Source: Acetobacter aceti NBRC 14818 (lineage in GTDB: Bacteria > Pseudomonadota > Alphaproteobacteria > Acetobacterales > Acetobacteraceae). From it: DNA of 64,000 nt. The DNA lies in NCBI RefSeq assembly GCF_000193495.2, contig NZ_AP023410.1, positions 2,170,001 through 2,234,000 of the forward strand, written 5' to 3'. Shown one piece after another: positions 1 through 64,000 of this stretch. A program made the position numbers and the translations under genes. Under the pieces are notes generated by a model. That model did not search any database. It was not told where the DNA came from and saw only the letters and a program-made list of their open reading frames with translations. Positions within the stretch are counted from its first letter, which is position 1; each line of letters begins with the position of its first letter.

Positions 1-1546
1 GCTGGGCCTGCGACATGACCGCCAGCCCCAGCACGCTCACGCCGACACCGATATGCGCCAGAGCCGCGCCGAACGCGGAGCGTGGCAGGGACTTCGCCCG
101 CTGGATGCTCTGCGAAAACGACACGCGGAACAGCGCCAGACGACCGGCAATGTCTGTCAGGCTGGAACCGATGATCCATACCGCCATCGTCGCACACAGG
201 ATTGGCAGCACGCCCGCAAGCCCGATCACCGTCACGACGAACGCGGCCAGCGTGGCCAGCGCCGCGACCCACAGGCGCCTGAGAACCGGCCAGAGCTGCG
301 CCCGCTTCCACGGCAGCATTGGTCCGAACCCCATGAAGGTGAACAGCGGGATGGCCAGAGGAATGGTGGCCGCGTCAAAGAAGGGCTTGCCGACCGAGAT
401 CGTCTTGCCGAACAGCAGCGACATGAACGGCGGATACATCGTGCCGGTCAGCACCACGGCGCAGATCGAGCACAGCAGGATGTTGTTCAGCACCAGCGAG
501 CCTTCCCGCGAGACCGGGGCGAACAGGCCGCCGCTGGTCAGAGACGGAGCACGCCATGCGAACAGCGCCAGCGATCCGCCGATGACCAGTCCCAGCAGGG
601 CGAGAATGAAGATGCCGCGCGCCGGGTCCTGCGCGAAGGCGTGAACCGAATTGAGGATACCTGAACGCACGAGGAATGTGCCGGAGAGCGAGAAGGAGAA
701 GGTGCCAATAGCCAGCAGAACGGTCCAGATCTTCAGCGCCTCACGCTTCTCGACCACGATGGCGGAGTGCATCAGCGCCGTGCCGGACAGCCACGGAATC
801 AGCGAGGCGTTCTCCACCGGGTCCCAGAACCAGTAACCGCCCCAGCCGAGCACATAATAGGACCACCATGACCCAAGCGCGATGCCGCAGGTCAGGAAGC
901 ACCACGCCGCCACGGCCCACGGACGCACCCAGCGCCCCCATGCCGCATCGACGCGCCCTTCCATCAGCGCGGCAATGGCGAAGGCGAACGGCACGGCGAA
1001 TCCGACATAGCCGGTGTAGAGAATCGGCGGATGGAACGCGAGGCCGGGGTCCTGCAACAGTGGGTTCATGCCCTGTCCGTCGAGCGGTGCGGGCCAGACC
1101 CGGTCGAACGGATCAGAGGTCGTCAGGCAGAACAGTTCGAACCCGGCGGCCACGCCACCCAGCACACCGATCACCCGCGCCCGCAGGGCCGATGGCAGAT
1201 TACGACCGAACGCCGCCACCGCTGCACCGCAGATGCCGAGAATCAGCGCCCAGAGCAGGATGGACCCTTCATGGTTTCCCCAGACGCCGGTGATCTTGTA
1301 GAGCAGCGGCTTGGTCACCGAGCTGTTCTCAAGGATGTTGGCCACCGAGAAGTCGTTGGTCACCGCTGCATTCACAAGGCAGAGGAAGGAGGCGACCAGC
1401 GCGATGAGCTGCCCCAGCGCCAGACCGGGGGCGAGCGCCATCAGGCGACGGTCTCGCCTGCGTGCGCCCAGCACCGGCAGGATAGCCTGCGCCAGCGCGA
1501 AGACGCAGGCCAGCGCCAGCGCGAAACGACCAAGTTCGGGGCTCAT
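1..1546 (-). CDS. ccmF: Cytochrome c-type biogenesis protein CcmF (partial)
   Basis: Haem lyase subunit of the system I cytochrome c maturation machinery; it sits in the inner membrane and helps attach haem to apocytochrome c. Translating the minus strand from the ATG at 1546 gives MSPELGRFALALACVFALAQ and then a continuous, very hydrophobic frame to the window edge. It contains the tryptophan-rich WWD signature (GWGGYWFWDPVENASLIPW) typical of the CcmF/CcmC family, roughly 230 residues in. The C-terminal part lies outside the window. It is the last gene seen of a leftward ccmC-D-E-F order, 139 bp after ccmE, and that gap holds a repeat element. Identification is secure; only the C-terminus is unseen. 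Confidence 0.95.
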   Translation of the reverse strand, partial: MSPELGRFALALACVFALAQAILPVLGARRRDRRLMALAPGLALGQLIALVASFLCLVNAAVTNDFSVANILENSSVTKPLLYKITGVWGNHEGSILLWALILGICGAAVAAFGRNLPSALRARVIGVLGGVAAGFELFCLTTSDPFDRVWPAPLDGQGMNPLLQDPGLAFHPPILYTGYVGFAVPFAFAIAALMEGRVDAAWGRWVRPWAVAAWCFLTCGIALGSWWSYYVLGWGGYWFWDPVENASLIPWLSGTALMHSAIVVEKREALKIWTVLLAIGTFSFSLSGTFLVRSGILNSVHAFAQDPARGIFILALLGLVIGGSLALFAWRAPSLTSGGLFAPVSREGSLVLNNILLCSICAVVLTGTMYPPFMSLLFGKTISVGKPFFDAATIPLAIPLFTFMGFGPMLPWKRAQLWPVLRRLWVAALATLAAFVVTVIGLAGVLPILCATMAVWIIGSSLTDIAGRLALFRVSFSQSIQRAKSLPRSAFGAALAHIGVGVSVLGLAVMSQAQ

Positions 1547-1582
1547 ACGGCCTCACTTCTCTTTTTGGATATACCGGGAATA

Positions 1583-1628
1583 GGGGCTCTGCCCCTTGGC
1601 CCCCGCCAAAGGCTCACCTTTGGAAACC
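1583..1628. repeat. Intergenic palindromic repeat, family A copy 1
   Basis: Short element in the ccmE-ccmF gap. It has a GGGGCTCTGCCCC palindrome followed by CCGCCAAAGG, a short loop and CCTTTGGAAACC. The same design recurs at 39861, 43312, 50168, 52466 and 55776, always between genes. Confidence 0.75.
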
Positions 1629-1685
1629 GTGCATGAAATTGAATCGGGTAGAGGTTGCTCTTGGAAAGCAGACGGAGGGAAGGCA

Positions 1686-2201
1686 TCAGTTCTTCCCGGC
1701 CGCCGCTGTATCCTTGCCGGTCATGGCGTTCCAGCTTGCAGCATCGGGTGGAGGACCGAATTTCGGGTTCCATTTCCCCGATTTCTGCAACGCTTCCGCC
1801 ACTTCCTTCGGCATGTAGGTCTCATCATGCTTGGCCAGCACTTCCGACGCCACGAAGGTCTTGTCAGGCTCCAGAGAGCCCACGGCCACCACGCTCTGCC
1901 CCTCGCGGAACAAGTCCGGCAGGATGCCCTCGAAGCGCACGGTCACAGCGGCCTGACCGTCCGTCACCTGAAACAGGTTGATGGGCGTTTCGCCCTGACG
2001 CTCACGCTTCACCGATCCCGCCACGACCATGCCGCCAAGCCGGATCGTGCGATCCGCTGCGGGCGGATGGTCCACCACCTGAGAGGGGGCCATGAAAAGC
2101 TGGATATTGGAGGAAAAGGCCGAAAGCGTCAGACCGGCGGCTGTGCCCAGTCCGGCGACACAGGCGATGACAAGCCAGAGACGGCGGGTCTTGCGTTTCA
2201 T
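1686..2201 (-). CDS. ccmE: Cytochrome c maturation haem chaperone CcmE
   Basis: Periplasmic haem chaperone that covalently binds haem and hands it to the CcmF lyase. The 171-residue protein has an N-terminal membrane anchor (about residues 7-28), then the OB-fold domain. The haem-binding signature is visible as LAKHDETYMP, giving His125 as the covalent haem ligand and Tyr129 as the axial ligand by family homology. The ATG overlaps the ccmD stop (ATGA), so the two are probably translationally coupled. The C-terminal tail after about residue 140 is variable, as is usual for the family. Confidence 0.96.
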   Translation of the reverse strand: MKRKTRRLWLVIACVAGLGTAAGLTLSAFSSNIQLFMAPSQVVDHPPAADRTIRLGGMVVAGSVKRERQGETPINLFQVTDGQAAVTVRFEGILPDLFREGQSVVAVGSLEPDKTFVASEVLAKHDETYMPKEVAEALQKSGKWNPKFGPPPDAASWNAMTGKDTAAAGKN

Positions 2202-2368
2202 GCGCGTTGTCCTCCCTGTGTCGCACTCTGGGCCCGGCCACGTGCAGCTTCCAGCGAGGCCAGTTTCAACCGGTCACGCTTCAGGCGCAGTGCTGCGCCA
2301 ACGGACAGGATGACGGCCAGACTGCCCGCCAGCCCGTAGGACGCCAGAATATAAGGCAGGTGGGTCAT
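2198..2368 (-). CDS. ccmD: Haem exporter protein CcmD
   Basis: Small membrane protein of 56 residues that in the known system helps release holo-CcmE from the CcmABC complex. It starts MTHLPYILASYGLAG, has one transmembrane segment (about 7-27) and a basic charged tail (RLKRDRLK), the standard CcmD layout. It is set by its position between ccmC and ccmE, with ATGA overlaps on both sides (2365-2368 and 2198-2201). A longer frame runs further upstream but is only the shadow of ccmC. Confidence 0.9.
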   Translation of the reverse strand: MTHLPYILASYGLAGSLAVILSVGAALRLKRDRLKLASLEAARGRAQSATQGGQRA

Positions 2369-3162
2369 GCGGATGCTTCCCCGGATGAAGCCCGACGCGG
2401 GCTTGAGAGTAGACTGCGAATACGGCTTTCCATCACACCGGCCCGGAGACGCGCAACAACAATCGCCGCAAAGCCCAGCGTGAACCCCAGTGTGGAAATC
2501 AGCAGCGGCCAGAGCATGGTCTGGGACATGGTCGGCGCGCCGGTCAGGGTGATGCTGGCGGGCTGATGCAGTGTGTTCCACCACTGCACGCTGAACTTGA
2601 TGATCGGCAGATCCACGGCTCCGGCCAGCGCCAGAATGGCCGCCGCACGATAGCCACGTTGCTGGTCGTCGAAAGCGTGGATCAAGGCGATGTGCCCGAG
2701 ATAGAGAAAGAACAGCACCAGCACGGAGGTCAGCCGGGCGTCCCACACCCACCATGTGCCCCACATCGGTTTGCCCCACAGGGAGCCGGTCGCCAGACAG
2801 GTCGCCGTCACGCAAGCGCCGACCGGTCCGATCTCGACGGCGGCGAGATCGGCGAGCGGGTGCTTCCAGACCAGAGACAGCACCGAACAGACGGCCAGCG
2901 CGAAATAGCCCGAGGACGACAGCCAGGCGCACGGGACATGCACATACATGATGCGCACCGAATCACCCTGCTGCCAGTCGGCAGGAGAGAAGAACAGCCC
3001 CCAGCCCAGCCCGATCAGCGTGATGATCACGGCGGACCATGTCAGCCAGGGCTGAATCCTGTCGCCCAGACGCAGGAAGCGGCCGGGGTTGGCATAGCGG
3101 TGAAACAGGGCTCCGGCCCGCTCTGTCAGTGTCGGCGTCGCGCTCAAGGTCCGTCCGTTCAT
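2365..3162 (-). CDS. ccmC: Haem exporter / haem handling protein CcmC
   Basis: Inner-membrane protein that delivers haem to CcmE. The 265 residues carry six probable membrane segments. The WWD signature is at about residues 129-146 (WGKPMWGTWWVWDARLTS), and a candidate haem-ligand His lies in YVHVP at 75, with a second in the WWNTLHQP loop. It is the first visible gene of the leftward ccmCDEF run; ccmA and ccmB are not in the window upstream. The ATG at 3162 has no strong competing start. Confidence 0.96.
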   Translation of the reverse strand: MNGRTLSATPTLTERAGALFHRYANPGRFLRLGDRIQPWLTWSAVIITLIGLGWGLFFSPADWQQGDSVRIMYVHVPCAWLSSSGYFALAVCSVLSLVWKHPLADLAAVEIGPVGACVTATCLATGSLWGKPMWGTWWVWDARLTSVLVLFFLYLGHIALIHAFDDQQRGYRAAAILALAGAVDLPIIKFSVQWWNTLHQPASITLTGAPTMSQTMLWPLLISTLGFTLGFAAIVVARLRAGVMESRIRSLLSSPRRASSGEASA

Positions 3163-3363
3163 TGGCAGGGCGCATCATTACGCCCATGTGGGTAAACCAT
3201 TCCTTATGGCGCACCGCCCGCGAGCACGGAAGACGGCACGCAATCAGGCCCTGATGATCATGCAGGGGGTCGTGCGGGCTGTCTTCCTACACTATCATGC
3301 GGATATTGGCACGGGGTGCCCGCTGCATGGGCGGCACTCCCTCATTTCAACCCGGAGCCTCCT

Positions 3364-57257: not shown

Positions 57258-57492
57258 AAATCCTTAACAAGACGTTTTTGCCAGATCACTACGATTTTCT
57301 CGCAGGGACGCCTTGATAAGAACAGATTACGGAACATATGCGGAACAGGGATAATTCCCCATGCCGCACATTGCGGGAAGGGTCAGGCTTGTGACAGACT
57401 CGTCAATCAGTGCGGTTTTTACACCTGACGAACCATCATTGTTCGCTCTCATGGGCGGAACAACAGGTGGAAACGGGTTTCGAGGAATGGAC

Positions 57493-58518
57493 ATGGACAA
57501 GACGAAGGCCCTTGAAGGGGCGCTGAGCCAGATTGAGCGTGCTTTCGGCAAAGGGTCGATCATGCGCCTCGGACAGCGTCCGAAAGAAGAAGCCGATGCG
57601 ATCTCAACCGGGTCGCTCGGTCTTGATATCGCGCTTGGCATCGGCGGCATGCCGCGCGGTCGTATTGTCGAGATTTATGGGCCGGAAAGCTCGGGCAAGA
57701 CGACGCTGGCGCTGCACATCATTGCCGAAGCCCAGAAAAAGGGCGGCACCTGCGCCTTTATTGACGCCGAGCACGCGCTTGATCCTGGCTACGCCCGCAA
57801 GCTGGGCGTTGATGTGGACAATCTGCTGATCAGTCAGCCGGATGCCGGTGAACAGGCGCTGGAAATCGCGGACACACTCGTCCGTTCCGGCGCTGTTGAC
57901 GTGCTGGTGGTGGACAGTGTCGCGGCCCTTGTTCCGCGCGCAGAACTGGAAGGCGATATGGGCGACAGCCATGTCGGTCTTCATGCCCGTCTGATGAGTC
58001 AGGCGCTGCGTAAGCTGACTGGCACGGTCTCACGTTCCAACACGCTGCTGGTGTTCCTGAACCAGATCCGTCTGAAGATCGGCGTGATGTTCGGCAATCC
58101 GGAGACGACGACAGGCGGTAACGCCCTGAAGTTCTACGCCTCCGTGCGTCTGGATATCCGTCGGATCGGGTCCATCAAGGACAAGGATGAGGTTGTCGGT
58201 AACCAGACCCGCGTGAAAGTGGTCAAGAACAAGATGGCTCCTCCGTTCCGGCAGGTGGAATTCGACATCATGTATGGCGAAGGCATCAGCAAGATGGGCG
58301 AGCTGATCGATCTTGGCGTGAAGGCCGGCGTGGTCGAAAAGTCGGGAGCGTGGTTCTCCTATGACAGCCAGCGGGTTGGTCAGGGCCGTGAAAACGCCAA
58401 GAACTTCCTGCGCGAGCATCCGGAGATGGCTCATGCCATCGAGCATCGTATTCGCGAGCAGGCCGGTGTGGTTGCCGAAGCCATGATGGACGGCCCGGAC
58501 GAGGGCGAAGAGCACTAA
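57493..58518 (+). CDS. recA: Recombinase RecA
   Basis: DNA strand-exchange ATPase and co-protease for LexA. The start [20 protein letters not shown] is preferred because AGGA is upstream and the family begins here (341 residues); the open frame reaches 57361 with several other starts, including 57487. Walker A is GPESSGKTT (63-71), followed by the family pieces [32 protein letters not shown] and [20 protein letters not shown]. An SOS box lies upstream and a terminator follows. Confidence 0.98.
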
Positions 58519-58626: not shown

Positions 58627-59051
58627 TTAAGCCTGAGCATCCAGAAGCGGCTCTCTCTGCCCGGGAGTAAGGGAAAGAGCCACAGCCTTTCCTGTGGCAT
58701 CGACGGTGACGTTGATCGTCGTGGTCAGTTCGCGTCCTTTTTTTACGGGCACTCGTGCTGTCGAGCATCATGTATTCATTGTCATGATCGGCGATCAGAT
58801 GCCGGAAAACCTGCCCGATGACACCGTTTACGCACCAGTGGCGTAACCGCCGGTGGATGGATGCTCTTCCAGTCACCGAACAGGCAGGCAGCCGCGTCAG
58901 GGAATGCCAGCGCGATGGGGTGATACAGCACAGCCTCTACAAACAGACGGCTGTCCGATGCTGTTCCTCCGACATGATCTTCACGACCAGGGAGAAAGTC
59001 CTTTATCCGCTCGCACTGGCTGTCGCTCAGTCCATACCGGCGTATTCCCAT
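58627..59051 (-). pseudogene. Decayed IS5-family transposase fragment
   Basis: Remnant of an IS5-type (IS427/IS1031-like) transposase, frameshifted. From 59051 the frame reads MGIRRYGLSDSQCERIKDFL and GREDHVGGTASDSRLFVEAV, the usual N-terminus. A second frame continues with HDNEYMMLDST, carrying the first Asp of the DDE set, and then a third reads KGRELTTTINVTVDATGKAV and LSLTPGQREPL, the next conserved block. The rest, including the last catalytic residues, is missing. It marks past insertion downstream of recA. No flanking inverted repeats were confirmed. Confidence 0.85.
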
Positions 59052-59154
59052 CGCTCCCTGAAGACAGGGAGAAAACGTCACAGATCAAATGGAAGTACAA
59101 GCGTCTTTCAACCGTGTGCTCACTGACGATGCAATCTGGGTCGTATCTAATATC

Positions 59155-59526
59155 TCATTGATGAGTGTTGGCGGATTCTGCGCGGTGTTCCGCTCCCCAT
59201 GCGGCCAGTATGAATACCACTTTTTCCAGCTTTTTCCCTGATGATGTTAATGCATATTTACGGTTTTTGCCGTCTGGCTCTGATTTGTGCCGTGTGATGG
59301 TGCCATTAACCTCCAGCTCGCGCAATTCGCGAGAGAGCATGCGAGGCGAAATGGTCGCTAAAAGCCGTTCAATATCCGCGAAGCCCTTGGGTCCGCTCAA
59401 CAACGTGCAGACAATCGCCAACTTCCACTTGCCGCTGACAACTGCCAGGGCATCACGGATCGCCAGAACGAAGGCCTTTTTGCACAGGTCGTGATTTTCC
59501 GGCTCAATTTCCATTTGATGTTTCAT
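59155..59526 (-). CDS. HxlR family transcriptional regulator
   Basis: A 123-residue winged-helix regulator. A Cys near the N-terminus (HDLCKKAFVLAI, Cys15) is placed as in the redox- or quinone-sensing members (YodB/QorR type). The core is VSGKWKLAIVCTLLSGPKGF, IERLLATISPRMLSRELREL, NGTITRHKSEPDGKNRKYAL. It is divergent from the NmrA-like reductase gene, a typical arrangement for a local repressor. Composition is more AT-rich than the surroundings, suggesting transfer. Confidence 0.87.
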   Translation of the reverse strand: MKHQMEIEPENHDLCKKAFVLAIRDALAVVSGKWKLAIVCTLLSGPKGFADIERLLATISPRMLSRELRELEVNGTITRHKSEPDGKNRKYALTSSGKKLEKVVFILAAWGAEHRAESANTHQ

Positions 59527-59619
59527 TTTGCCCTCTGCCGAACTGGAGTCTGAACTATACAGGTTGATAGTGCTTTAGCGCTTCAATCCCTTTAAGTACT
59601 CGCAATGTGATCGGGGGTT

Positions 59620-60489
59620 GTGATGATACTGATTGGTGGTTCGACTGGCCAACTGGGTAGCGCTGTTGTGGCCCAATTAGCGAAACAGGGAGCAAAAGGT
59701 AATTTTGCCGTCCTTGCTCGCAATGCGGAGAAAGCCAAGGAATATTTCAACCAAGGGATCGAGGTCCGTCTGGCGGATTACGACTACCCTGACAGCTTGT
59801 CTGCCGCTTTAGACGGAATAGAACGTTTTCTTTTCATTTCCACCATGTCGCAGAATCGTGGCCCCCAACAGAAGGCAGTGGTCGATGCCGCTCATGCCGC
59901 GGGCGTCAAGCATATCGTCTATACTGGGCATGCAATCAAAAATATCGACACATCAGCAGTCCGTGAGCTGATGAAGAGCCATTTTGAGACAGAGGACCAT
60001 ATCCGGGCTTCGGGTATGGAATGGACCTTCCTGCGCAACACCATGTATGCGGAAGCCATTCCCGAAATTGTAGGTCGGGATGCGGTAAGCAGTGGAATCT
60101 CGGTGCCGGGCGGGACAGGGCGGGTGCCTTACGCTCTACGCTCTGAAATGGGTGAAGCAACAGCGAACCTGCTGCTAAATGATGGTCACACTGGGAAGAC
60201 TTACAATATCACCGGCAATGACAATCTGAGTTATGACGATCTTGTACAGATATTGTCACGATTGACTGGAAGACAGCTGGAATATCGAAATATTTCAGAA
60301 CAACAATTCAGTGACGCCTTACAGGCGGCTGGAATGCCTGATTTTCCAATCTGGCTTACGCTAAACACGCTACGAGACATCAAGTCCGGGCAATATGATC
60401 TCCGGTCGCGGGATCTTGAAACACTTCTCGGACGCCCTCCAGCATCAGGTGAGAAGATGTTGAACGAGGTGTTCAGTATCGCTCATTAA
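59620..60489 (+). CDS. NmrA-like NAD(P)-binding protein (quinone reductase QorB-like)
   Basis: A 289-residue atypical SDR. The nucleotide loop is MILIGGSTGQLGSAVVAQL. AVLARNAEKAKEYFNQG, FLFISTMSQNRGPQQKAVVD and GMEWTFLRNTMYAEAIPEIV match the QOR2/NmrA-type reductases that act on quinones or azo dyes. No SDR Tyr-x3-Lys pair is seen. The start is GTG 59620 or ATG 59623. Divergent HxlR gene upstream suggests redox-controlled expression. Confidence 0.85.
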   Translation: MMILIGGSTGQLGSAVVAQLAKQGAKGNFAVLARNAEKAKEYFNQGIEVRLADYDYPDSLSAALDGIERFLFISTMSQNRGPQQKAVVDAAHAAGVKHIVYTGHAIKNIDTSAVRELMKSHFETEDHIRASGMEWTFLRNTMYAEAIPEIVGRDAVSSGISVPGGTGRVPYALRSEMGEATANLLLNDGHTGKTYNITGNDNLSYDDLVQILSRLTGRQLEYRNISEQQFSDALQAAGMPDFPIWLTLNTLRDIKSGQYDLRSRDLETLLGRPPASGEKMLNEVFSIAH

Positions 60490-60571
60490 CACCACCAAGA
60501 GTGGACGAAGTTAGCAATTTTTGGGCTTGGGATGTCCCCCTGCCCTCCGCAATAGAAAAGAAGAGGTTGTC

Positions 60572-60970
60572 ATGAACACTTCTCCCCGTGCTGTCGTAGA
60601 GAGCATGTTTGCCGCTTTCGAAGCCAAAGACCTTGCCGCCGCACTTGTCACCGTTTCGACAGACACACTCTGGATCCATCATGGTACACAGAAGATGCCG
60701 TCCGTACGGTTTGAAGGCAAACATGGTGCGGAGCAATTTTTCCAGACCAGCTTCAACACCATGAAGATAGATTATTTCCGTCCGCTGGCTTTTATCGAGC
60801 AGGGCGACAAGGTCGTTGTACTCGGTGAGGAAAGTTATACTATGGACGGAATCGATGGCAAGCTCACTAACAAATGGGTTCAGGTCTACACAGTCACCAA
60901 TGGTTTGATCAGCAAGATGGAGGAGTTCGCCACTTCAGCGGATCCCGCGTCTTACATAATTGTCAAATAA
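60572..60970 (+). CDS. SnoaL-like (NTF2-fold) protein
   Basis: A 132-residue protein of the SnoaL/NTF2 superfamily. The start MNTSPRAVVESMFAAFEAKD is preferred because GAAGAGG is upstream; the frame is open to 60521. DTLWIHHGTQ, HGAEQFFQTSFNTMK and KWVQVYTVTNGLISKMEEFA are typical pieces of the fold. Members may be polyketide cyclases or small-molecule binders. It is 82 bp downstream of the NmrA-like gene and probably co-transcribed. Confidence 0.8.
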   Translation: MNTSPRAVVESMFAAFEAKDLAAALVTVSTDTLWIHHGTQKMPSVRFEGKHGAEQFFQTSFNTMKIDYFRPLAFIEQGDKVVVLGEESYTMDGIDGKLTNKWVQVYTVTNGLISKMEEFATSADPASYIIVK

Positions 60971-61596: not shown

Positions 61597-62016
61597 TTAC
61601 TGACGACGCGCCCTGATCTCATATACGCTGATGCCAACAATCAAACCAAACAGAAACAGATAGCTTGAGACGTGACCGGGTATGATCGCGGTAAGGGCGG
61701 GAGCCGGACAAATCCCGGAAAGCCCCCAACCAACCCCGAACAGAGCGCTGCCAATAACAAGATTCCTGTCGATATGTCTGGCGGTTGGCATATGAAAGCT
61801 GACGTCCAGAACAGGTTTTTTCATTTTTCTTTGAAGAAGAACCGCCAGTGCGGCAAGACCTGTCGCACCCATCAGGACAAAACACAACGAAGGATCCCAT
61901 TGGCCCGTGACGTCCAGAAATCCCTGCACGCGTTGGGGATCAAGCATGCCGCTGAAGCAAAGTCCCAGGCCGAACAGGAGCGCGCTTGCAAAAGTGGCAG
62001 CCAGATAAAAAATCAT
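61597..62016 (-). CDS. YeeE/YedE family transporter, half-size (DUF6691-like)
   Basis: A 139-residue membrane protein with about four helices. The GLGLCFSGMLDPQRVQGFLD and GVGWGLSGICPAPALTAI segments match the short YeeE/YedE (thiosulfate-transport-like) proteins that work as pairs; the Cys in GLSGICPAP is the likely sulfur-handling residue. It lies 3 bp after its partner and on the same strand as the cysteine desulfurase. Confidence 0.88.
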   Translation of the reverse strand: MIFYLAATFASALLFGLGLCFSGMLDPQRVQGFLDVTGQWDPSLCFVLMGATGLAALAVLLQRKMKKPVLDVSFHMPTARHIDRNLVIGSALFGVGWGLSGICPAPALTAIIPGHVSSYLFLFGLIVGISVYEIRARRQ

Positions 62017-62019
62017 GAT

Positions 62020-62436
62020 CTATTTCCAAAGCGTCAGTCGTAAAATCGCTACGGTTATCATGCCGGAAAGCAGAAAGACCGGAACGGCCACGAAAGAGCG
62101 GGGCGAAAGGCGGCCAAGCCCCAGAATACCATGTCCGCTGGTGCAACCGCCTCCCAGACGTGCTCCATATCCGGCGAGTATGCCGGCAGGAAAAAAAACG
62201 AACCATGGAACCTGAAAATGCATTTTCGGCCAGTGGTCGGTCAGAAGAGTGTAAACCAGAGGCGCGACGATGAGACCGGCCAGAAAGGCTCCGCACGCGA
62301 CGCGCCTGTGTCCGACGAGAAAACCAGCCAGAATGCCACTCACCCCGGCGATCCGTCCGTTGAGCAACAGCAAAGCCGATGCTCCGAGGCCAATAAGTAT
62401 GCCGCCCAAAAAACTCTGGAGATAGGAGCTGGTCAT
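62020..62436 (-). CDS. YeeE/YedE family transporter, half-size partner
   Basis: A 138-residue membrane protein starting MTSSYLQSFLGGILIGLGAS; the frame is open to 62481. Three to four hydrophobic segments surround the signature GARLGGGCTSGHGILGLGRL, with the conserved Cys of the YeeE family. Together with the 61597-62016 partner it would make a full-size sulfur-compound channel. It is likely to share a transcript with the desulfurase gene, 164 bp upstream. Confidence 0.88.
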   Translation of the reverse strand: MTSSYLQSFLGGILIGLGASALLLLNGRIAGVSGILAGFLVGHRRVACGAFLAGLIVAPLVYTLLTDHWPKMHFQVPWFVFFPAGILAGYGARLGGGCTSGHGILGLGRLSPRSFVAVPVFLLSGMITVAILRLTLWK

Positions 62437-62600: not shown

Positions 62601-64000
62601 TCAGGAACGAGGTAACTGATGCAACGCCCTTACAAGCACATCTACATCCTCAAATGTGTTGTAGAGACCGAAAGACGCCCTGACCGTTTCCTCCACTCCA
62701 AACCGTCGTAGTGACGGCTGGGCGCAATGATGTCCCGAACGGGCTGCGATGCCTTGCCGGTCGAGATGTCGCGCCACGTCTCCAGCCGTGTGTCCGTCGA
62801 TCACGAAAGACACGACACTCGCCTTGCGCGCTGCCTGCCCTATGATCCTGAGGCCCCGGATTTCAGCAAGCTGGGGGGTCACGTATTCCAACAGTGCGTG
62901 TTCATGCGCGGCAATGGCGGAGAGCCCCAAGGACTGGAGATAGTCCACTGCGGCGCCCAGACCAACAGCTCCTGAGATATCAGGTGTTCCTGCCTCAAAT
63001 TTTTCTGGAAGCCCCTGAAATTCAGTATGTTCGAACGTTACATCACGGATCATGTGCCCTCCCCCTTGCCAGGGCGGCATCGCGTCGAGTAGCGCCCGCT
63101 TGCCATAGAGAATGCCAATGCCGGTCGGACCGTAAATCTTGTGACCCGACAGAACCAGAAAGTCCGCATCCAGAGCTGTCACATCAATCGGCAGATGGGG
63201 CGATGACTGCGCTGCATCGACCAGCACGAGGATTCCCCTCGCATGGGCCAGAGCGATGATCTCTTCCACAGGATTGATCGTGCCAAGGGCATTGGCGACG
63301 TGTGTCACGGAAACGATCTTTGTTCTGGATGTAAGAAGTTTTTCAAAATCCTCCAAAATGATTTCGCCGCGGTCATTGACTGGCGCAGCCTTCAGTTCCG
63401 CACCGGTTTTCCGGGCGAGCAGCTGCCAGGGCACAATATTGGCATGATGTTCGATGGTAGAAACAACGATACGATCGCCTGCCCCGATATTTGCTGCGCC
63501 GTAGCTCTGGGCCACGAGGTTGATTGCTTCGGTCGTGCCCCGCAGAAAGACGATCTCGGCGGCTTCCTTCGCTCCGATGAAGCGACGCAGTTTCTCACGG
63601 GCTCCCTCGAACGCATCGGTGGCTCTGGCCGCAAGGGTATGGGCCCCTCGATGAATATTGGAATTGTCCCTTTCATAGAAGGATGAAATCGCATTGATGA
63701 CAGACAAGGGCTTCTGTGTCGTCGCTGCGTTGTCCAGCCACACCAGCTGGTGTCCGTTCACACGCTGGTTCAAGATAGGAAAATCCTGTCGGGCGCTGAC
63801 CGGATCGTAGCCTTGTGAAAGAGCAGCTGTGAAGCGACCTGGCACGTCGGATGAAAGATGCTCAAGAAAATAGGGACGCCCCCCATAGCCCGACGTTGGG
63901 TCGCGGAAAGCGCCTGTCAGCCACTCGGTCCCGCCCGTGTAAGGAGAAGCGCTGCCATACGATGAAATCAGGCGCCCCTCCAGTTTGGACGGGGTCTCAG
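62601..64000 (-). CDS. Cysteine desulfurase with N-terminal extension (SufS-like, partial)
   Basis: PLP enzyme that releases sulfur from cysteine as a persulfide. The SufS-like core (about 400 residues) has LDNAATTQKPLSVI, NIHRGAHTLAARAT, STIEHHANIVPWQ, LVLSGHKIYGPTGIG with the PLP Lys, and RSGHHCAQP with the active Cys. A GTG at 63845 could start a normal-length protein, but the same frame stays open past it to the window edge with a Gly/Tyr/Ser-rich leader (SSYGSASPYTGGTEW, GGRPYFLEHLSS). Such a long N-terminal extension is typical of encapsulin family 2A cargo desulfurases. The true N-terminus is outside the window. Confidence 0.82.
   Translation of the reverse strand, partial: ETPSKLEGRLISSYGSASPYTGGTEWLTGAFRDPTSGYGGRPYFLEHLSSDVPGRFTAALSQGYDPVSARQDFPILNQRVNGHQLVWLDNAATTQKPLSVINAISSFYERDNSNIHRGAHTLAARATDAFEGAREKLRRFIGAKEAAEIVFLRGTTEAINLVAQSYGAANIGAGDRIVVSTIEHHANIVPWQLLARKTGAELKAAPVNDRGEIILEDFEKLLTSRTKIVSVTHVANALGTINPVEEIIALAHARGILVLVDAAQSSPHLPIDVTALDADFLVLSGHKIYGPTGIGILYGKRALLDAMPPWQGGGHMIRDVTFEHTEFQGLPEKFEAGTPDISGAVGLGAAVDYLQSLGLSAIAAHEHALLEYVTPQLAEIRGLRIIGQAARKASVVSFVIDGHTAGDVARHLDRQGIAARSGHHCAQPSLRRFGVEETVRASFGLYNTFEDVDVLVRALHQLPRS

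Follow-up and report, generated by a model that had tools for sequence, protein, structure and literature searches.

The shells of family 2 encapsulins are divided by an internal domain, which is absent in family 2A and present in family 2B, and operons with a cysteine desulfurase have been counted for both, 1281 for 2A and 199 for 2B, with serine O-acetyltransferases and rhodaneses as their most enriched neighbours (PMC8346489; here and below, papers are cited for excerpts of their text). In Synechococcus elongatus, whose SrpI shell (2A; PDB 6X8M) takes up the desulfurase CyD, loading requires a 225-residue extension of the desulfurase with two named motifs (PMC8049743), and in Streptomyces 2B shells (PDB 9BHU, 9BJE and 9BIX) the internal domain, CBD, lies in the E-loop, its role in family 2B encapsulins being described as still unclear (PMC12407261). 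Here we describe a locus at the end of a 64,000-nucleotide stretch of the Acetobacter aceti NBRC 14818 genome (hereafter the window; C1:2170001-2234000 of 3.69 Mb), where a gene for a SufS-like cysteine desulfurase with a long N-terminal extension follows an encapsulin shell gene. The shell has the family 2B layout; the two products probably form a sulfur-holding compartment in which the domain inserted into the Acetobacter shell would be a fixed cover and not a ligand-controlled gate. Shell assembly, cargo loading and sulfur storage at this locus are what we infer from the genes described below (Table 1).

The first-pass annotation of the window expected an encapsulin gene just past its edge, and an intact SrpI-like shell gene is indeed found there, directly upstream of the desulfurase gene, with its stop codon inside the first codons of the latter so that the two overlap by 14 nucleotides. 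The shell matches PF19307 with 350.7 bits (cutoff 22.8), and its solved relatives by sequence are PDB 6x8m (E 1e-100), 8t6r and 9bje. Because a CBD-like insert interrupts its E-loop, the shell belongs to family 2B, not 2A, under the published definition, and since 2B/desulfurase operons with an E-loop insert in the shell and an unannotated N-terminal extension on the desulfurase have already been published (PMC8346489), the locus is of a known kind. SrpI shares with it the HK97-type core and a desulfurase cargo but carries no insert. The same is true of the cargo-loaded 2A shell of Acinetobacter baumannii (PDB 8T6R), presumably also a desulfurase-type system, which has a SrpI-like core (core identity 58%) and no insert. 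The partner of the S. griseus 2B shell we take to be a terpene cyclase. The S. lydicus shells differ as well, belonging to a xylulose-kinase type system (PMC12407261).

The desulfurase frame, reported earlier as open upstream of its usual start for at least 52 codons, indeed stays open on the minus strand (62601-63998) to the window edge, 51 codons ahead of its first GTG at 63845. Past position 64000 it meets no stop before its start in the genome, the ATG at 64181, giving a product of 526 amino acids with zero internal stops, and the next gene is the shell gene. All of SGHK, EHH and SGHHC, which we take to be the pyridoxal phosphate lysine, His and catalytic Cys sites of SufS, are found in it. 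The first-pass annotation had proposed a family 2A encapsulin cargo; the cargo part of that proposal is favoured by the NCBIfam search, in which f2_encap_cargo1 (NF041166, 749.5 bits) is the best of 35 matching families, while the label 2A is wrong, the shell having the 2B layout.

The N-terminal extension comprises the 132 residues ahead of DFPIL, and it is more than a chance open frame because close relatives align across it (A. suratthaniensis, 77% identity over residues 1-524; A. okinawensis, 66% over 1-525). Its GGRPYFLEHL, containing PYFL, matches the published cargo motif AASPYYFLDG, and YFL occurs in 82 of the 84 related extensions whose boundary was found by script (of 86), the remaining two having YYL or YFI (L049 and L114). 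Their length is 131-159 residues in the acetic acid bacteria of the clade and 243-304 residues in the Methylobacteriaceae loci; other members have 142-278 residues. By analogy with CyD, the extension of the window desulfurase is likely to be a shell-loading domain.

Table 1 Features of the encapsulin locus, in window coordinates; those beyond the window edge are window-equivalent (position in the genome stretch L005 + 57999).
Feature	Position	Strand or place	Basis
Encapsulin shell gene	64168-65532, 454 aa	-	PF19307, encap_f2b, PDB 6x8m/8t6r/9bje
E-loop insert, shell residues 68-199 (132 residues)	64936-65331	-	predicted CBD-like fold
Encapsulin-linked SufS-like cysteine desulfurase	62601..64000, whole gene to 64181	-	PF00266 497.8 bits, NF041166 749.5, TIGR01979 569.1
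N-terminal extension (putative loading domain), part inside window	63786..64000, whole to 64181	-	analogy with S. elongatus CyD loading domain
GGRPYFLEHLSS, counterpart of published cargo motif AASPYYFLDG	63849..63884	-	YFL in related extensions
LVSRAFRDVL, possible first cargo motif	64101-64130, outside window	-	by-eye weak resemblance to published LARLANEFFS
YeeE/YedE-type half-transporter A	62020..62436 (listed open reading frame from 62481; several relatives align from ATG 62436)	-	PF04143 32.4 bits
YeeE/YedE-type half-transporter B (DUF6691)	61597..62016	-	PF20398 134.6 bits, PF04143 30.6 bits
Broken serine O-acetyltransferase remnant	65804-66097	upstream of shell	tblastn 42%, one stop (TGA), three large gaps vs A. 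suratthaniensis protein

The insert departs from those of the published 2B/desulfurase operons in its likely ligand pocket. After shell residue 156 it shows a four-residue gap where relatives carry an FGD/FGE cassette. All 28 Acetobacter-type rows (24 distinct segments) lack these four residues, which are likely to belong to a phosphate-binding cassette; the cassette glycine is kept in 164 of the 166 other rows, and the columns flanking the gap show a new conserved pattern, G-Q, in 28/28 Acetobacter-type rows. The Streptomyces shell 9BJE, whose CBD-like domain aligns at the same place in the E-loop, keeps LGD at the cassette (core identity 54.7%). The insert is predicted by structure modelling to fold as a CBD; only the insert was read from the model, because the shell core was modelled poorly (mean pLDDT, the predicted local distance difference test, 52.8). 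PF00027 was not found at E<=1 in the whole shell or in the insert alone, whereas the Methylobacterium insert matches it with 39.8 (cutoff 27.5), and the insert, searched on its own against PDB sequences at E<=10, gave no CBD and one unrelated match, GPATCH1 (E 0.018).

In the compartment as we picture it, the desulfurase would attach to the inner shell wall through its extension and the PYFL motif therein, by analogy with loading in S. elongatus (PMC8049743), cysteine would enter the shell through pores, and the desulfurase would free alanine while the sulfur would stay inside or be released under sulfur shortage; the YeeE/YedE halves may supply the cell with a sulfur compound such as thiosulfate. 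In solved 2B shells the CBD lies over the two-fold pores (PMC12407261), and the CBD-like insert would be placed likewise; since the likely ligand cassette is deleted in Acetobacter, the insert is predicted to act there as a fixed pore cover instead of a ligand-controlled gate.

It is possible, but in our view rather doubtful, that the Acetobacter insert still senses a ligand through a pocket rebuilt for another signal, so that the gap would reflect an altered specificity instead of a loss. The retained predicted fold, the uniform G-Q around the gap and the purifying selection on the insert would all fit this, the median ratio of non-synonymous to synonymous substitution (dN/dS) being 0.27 in Acetobacter (21 pairs kept of 66 possible, from 12 loci), but the searches above recovered neither PF00027 nor a CBD, and the sister shell from Asaia manages without the domain. 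The corresponding medians are 0.35 in a mainly Methylobacterium set (1444 pairs kept), which also took in L051, L054, L055 and L063 of other genera, and 0.62 in two Xanthobacter/Aquabacter pairs; pairs were dropped when core dS lay outside 0.15-1.2, when insert dS was <0.1 or when values were saturated, and many of the dS values are high. We also considered a simple decay of the Acetobacter insert. In its favour, insert dN divided by core dN has a median of 39 in Acetobacter, higher than the 7.5 and 6.9 of the two comparison sets, but decay is unsupported, as the dN/dS of the insert does not exceed that of either comparison set; being still under constraint, the insert is not simply decaying.

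That the whole locus is decaying and nonfunctional in this strain is very unlikely. Its serine acetyltransferase neighbour is indeed a broken remnant, but the shell and cargo frames are intact, the dN/dS of the shell core is close to 0.01 in the retained Acetobacter pairs, and the genome contains two further stop-free serine acetyltransferase matches at other places. In our survey of neighbours, which covered about 8 kb on each side of the shell (some contigs are shorter, and L029 and L043 are one locus), 11 of the 12 other Acetobacter loci have a serine acetyltransferase match ahead of the shell gene (one Pfam-checked), and 51 of 53 Methylobacteriaceae stretches have this neighbour, which is broken here; the extensions of 243-304 residues in the latter loci likewise contrast with the 132 residues in the window.

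We regard a standard family 2A sulfur compartment, with nothing special about the domain, as highly improbable. The desulfurase partner, the cargo-type extension and the SrpI-like fold all suit it, and encap_f2a scores 420.4 bits against a cutoff of 380, but encap_f2b scores higher (506.4, cutoff 400), and the 132-residue E-loop insert already refutes this reading under the published definition, by which 2A shells have no internal domain. The core is 58.5% identical to SrpI as against about 75% to the Methylobacterium and Xanthobacter 2B shells, and trees agree: classical 2A shells (SrpI, A. baumannii and six from Acetobacteraceae) form one clade (100/99), and the window core falls outside it, within a second clade (100/99) of desulfurase-linked 2B-type shells. 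The trees, of 60 and 61 rows, used 279 core columns with the insert excluded and with near-identical rows thinned beforehand; L115_9526 was omitted for low coverage, and P0113 (A. fabarum, 289 amino acids) entered an initial tree but, being probably a truncated record, was excluded from these two. This record has no N-terminal part, yet a full-length shell is encoded at L046, the locus of A. fabarum LMG 24244, implying either a truncated record or a strain-specific break.

The Asaia shell is found in one of nine Asaia genomes (Asaia prunellae, G286; P0021). It has a desulfurase partner with an equal 14-nucleotide overlap and a core 78-79% identical despite lacking residues 68-199, that is, the whole CBD. 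Asaia and Acetobacter shells form one clade (100/100 in the 60-row tree, 100/99 in the 61-row tree) nested in the desulfurase-linked 2B-type clade, which is mostly CBD-bearing, and the starred branches of both trees demand at least three changes of domain presence. By approximately unbiased (AU) tests we rejected trees with all domain-less shells (17 rows) as one lineage (p 0.0002), with Asaia among classical 2A (p 0.00045) and with Asaia among 22 Verrucomicrobia-type rows (p 0.0007). Shells without CBD, called '2A', are thus not one lineage, because the trees and the AU tests set Asaia apart, and among the changes of domain presence its loss by the Asaia line has the best support. At the clade base, where a large domain-less Verrucomicrobia/Nitrospira-type group lies (about 320 amino acids; those among the listed matches to which NCBI gives a family name are called 2A), the direction of change is less sure: this base is open in the 60-row tree, and in the 61-row tree the Verrucomicrobia-type rows are basal, so that acquisition of the domain further up in the clade also fits. 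Domain loss is hinted at by an N-x-x-GE stretch that follows the insert site and is shared by 3/3 Asaia-type, 19/22 Verrucomicrobia-type, 23/28 domain-bearing and 0/8 classical 2A rows (the two PDB rows among the last being partial). In NCBI records the Asaia shell bears the name 'family 2B' although it lacks the domain, and the Verrucomicrobia shells of the clade (P0127, P0142 and P0174) bear the name 'family 2A'. Another Acetobacteraceae contig of 7.2 kb (L033, G091:C909) has two adjacent shell genes with a 2B-type insert at 518-3347 (469 and 478 amino acids), which looks like a two-component locus, and no desulfurase match on that contig.

Finally, that the desulfurase is an ordinary iron-sulfur pathway SufS lying beside the encapsulin gene by chance is scarcely credible. 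It does exceed the TIGR01979 sufS cutoff (569.1 against 475.1 bits), but a second desulfurase (C1:1402605, 47% identical) has a frame of 428 residues, which leaves no room for an extension of this kind, the desulfurase lies downstream of the shell on the same strand in 79 of the 81 retrieved loci assigned to the shell clade (the other two stop at contig ends), and the long extension with YFL recurs among its relatives.

Two YeeE/YedE half-transporters had also been read beside the desulfurase, rightly so, as PF04143 matches both and DUF6691 the second. Both halves lie near the shell in 43/81 clade loci. Of 13 Acetobacter loci, ten have the pair downstream of the desulfurase, L039 has none, and in L040 and L102 the contig stops short. 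The pair also occurs in 33 of 53 Methylobacteriaceae loci, 32 times upstream on the opposite strand, 1.7-7.2 kb from the shell, and once downstream, and in two of seven classical 2A loci of Acetobacteraceae (L032 and L035). Within the genus, half B is present in 11 of 12 shell-bearing genomes, in nine of them on the shell contig at a distance of about 2.5 kb or less, versus 7 of 37 shell-less genomes (Fisher p 1e-5, not corrected for relatedness). Half B of the window is closer to unlinked copies in other Acetobacter (44-51%, scores 112-124) than to linked ones (scores 58-95), so the pair may stem from more than one recruitment. A second half B (46% identical) lies at C1:2480560-2480925. Downstream of the pair, at 59155-60970, are an HxlR-type regulator, an NmrA-like protein and a SnoaL-like protein, and between the HxlR/NmrA genes and a recA-like gene (57361-58518, by eye) is a short minus-strand open reading frame (58782-59081), by eye an IS5-type transposase fragment. 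The A. suratthaniensis desulfurase is followed instead by genes for a LysR regulator and a choline sulfatase.

Several observations weigh against the compartment with a fixed cover. When the desulfurase was run against cargo models, as had been suggested, NF041166 led the list with a score short of its curated cutoff of 800, and the match covers profile positions 221-623 only, the extension itself not aligning to the model. The first cargo motif is only weakly recognisable, the pattern that we wrote for it matching 7 of 84 extensions. The YeeE pair was not found in the fetched stretch of the closest relative, A. suratthaniensis, nor in that of the Asaia locus, and the window locus has lost its intact serine acetyltransferase neighbour. 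The constraint on the insert also belongs here, as does earlier work, cited in the excerpt of PMC12407261, according to which a 2B CBD binds no cyclic nucleotide.

In the open-access literature, outside which most subscription journals lie, we found no paper pairing an encapsulin with YeeE or with a phosphate binding cassette, and none in which encapsulin, cysteine desulfurase and thiosulfate appear together. Neither the cassette deletion nor the loss of the domain in Asaia comes up in the excerpts consulted from this literature. Two encapsulin papers touch on Acetobacter or Asaia, PMC6821227 and PMC8776678, and the latter concerns, in its excerpt, a linocin/Dyp-peroxidase cluster and not the present locus. 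As this type of locus is already known, the cassette deletion and the missing Asaia domain make a variant, not a new kind of system.

These related cores, all partnered with a desulfurase, form a natural series in which the cassette is intact (Methylobacterium and Xanthobacter), deleted (Acetobacter) or gone with the whole domain (Asaia), and because the series is built on one kind of enzyme, the role of the CBD becomes testable. The sorting of shells into 2A and 2B by domain presence does not track descent. It is quite conceivable, though we offer it tentatively, that in acetic acid bacteria a 2B sulfur encapsulin loses its control domain stepwise, the CBD being a dispensable gate, the compartment becoming permanently set, and the '2A' layout being reached repeatedly. 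If this is true, a ligand-gated sulfur compartment would have been turned into a permanently set one.
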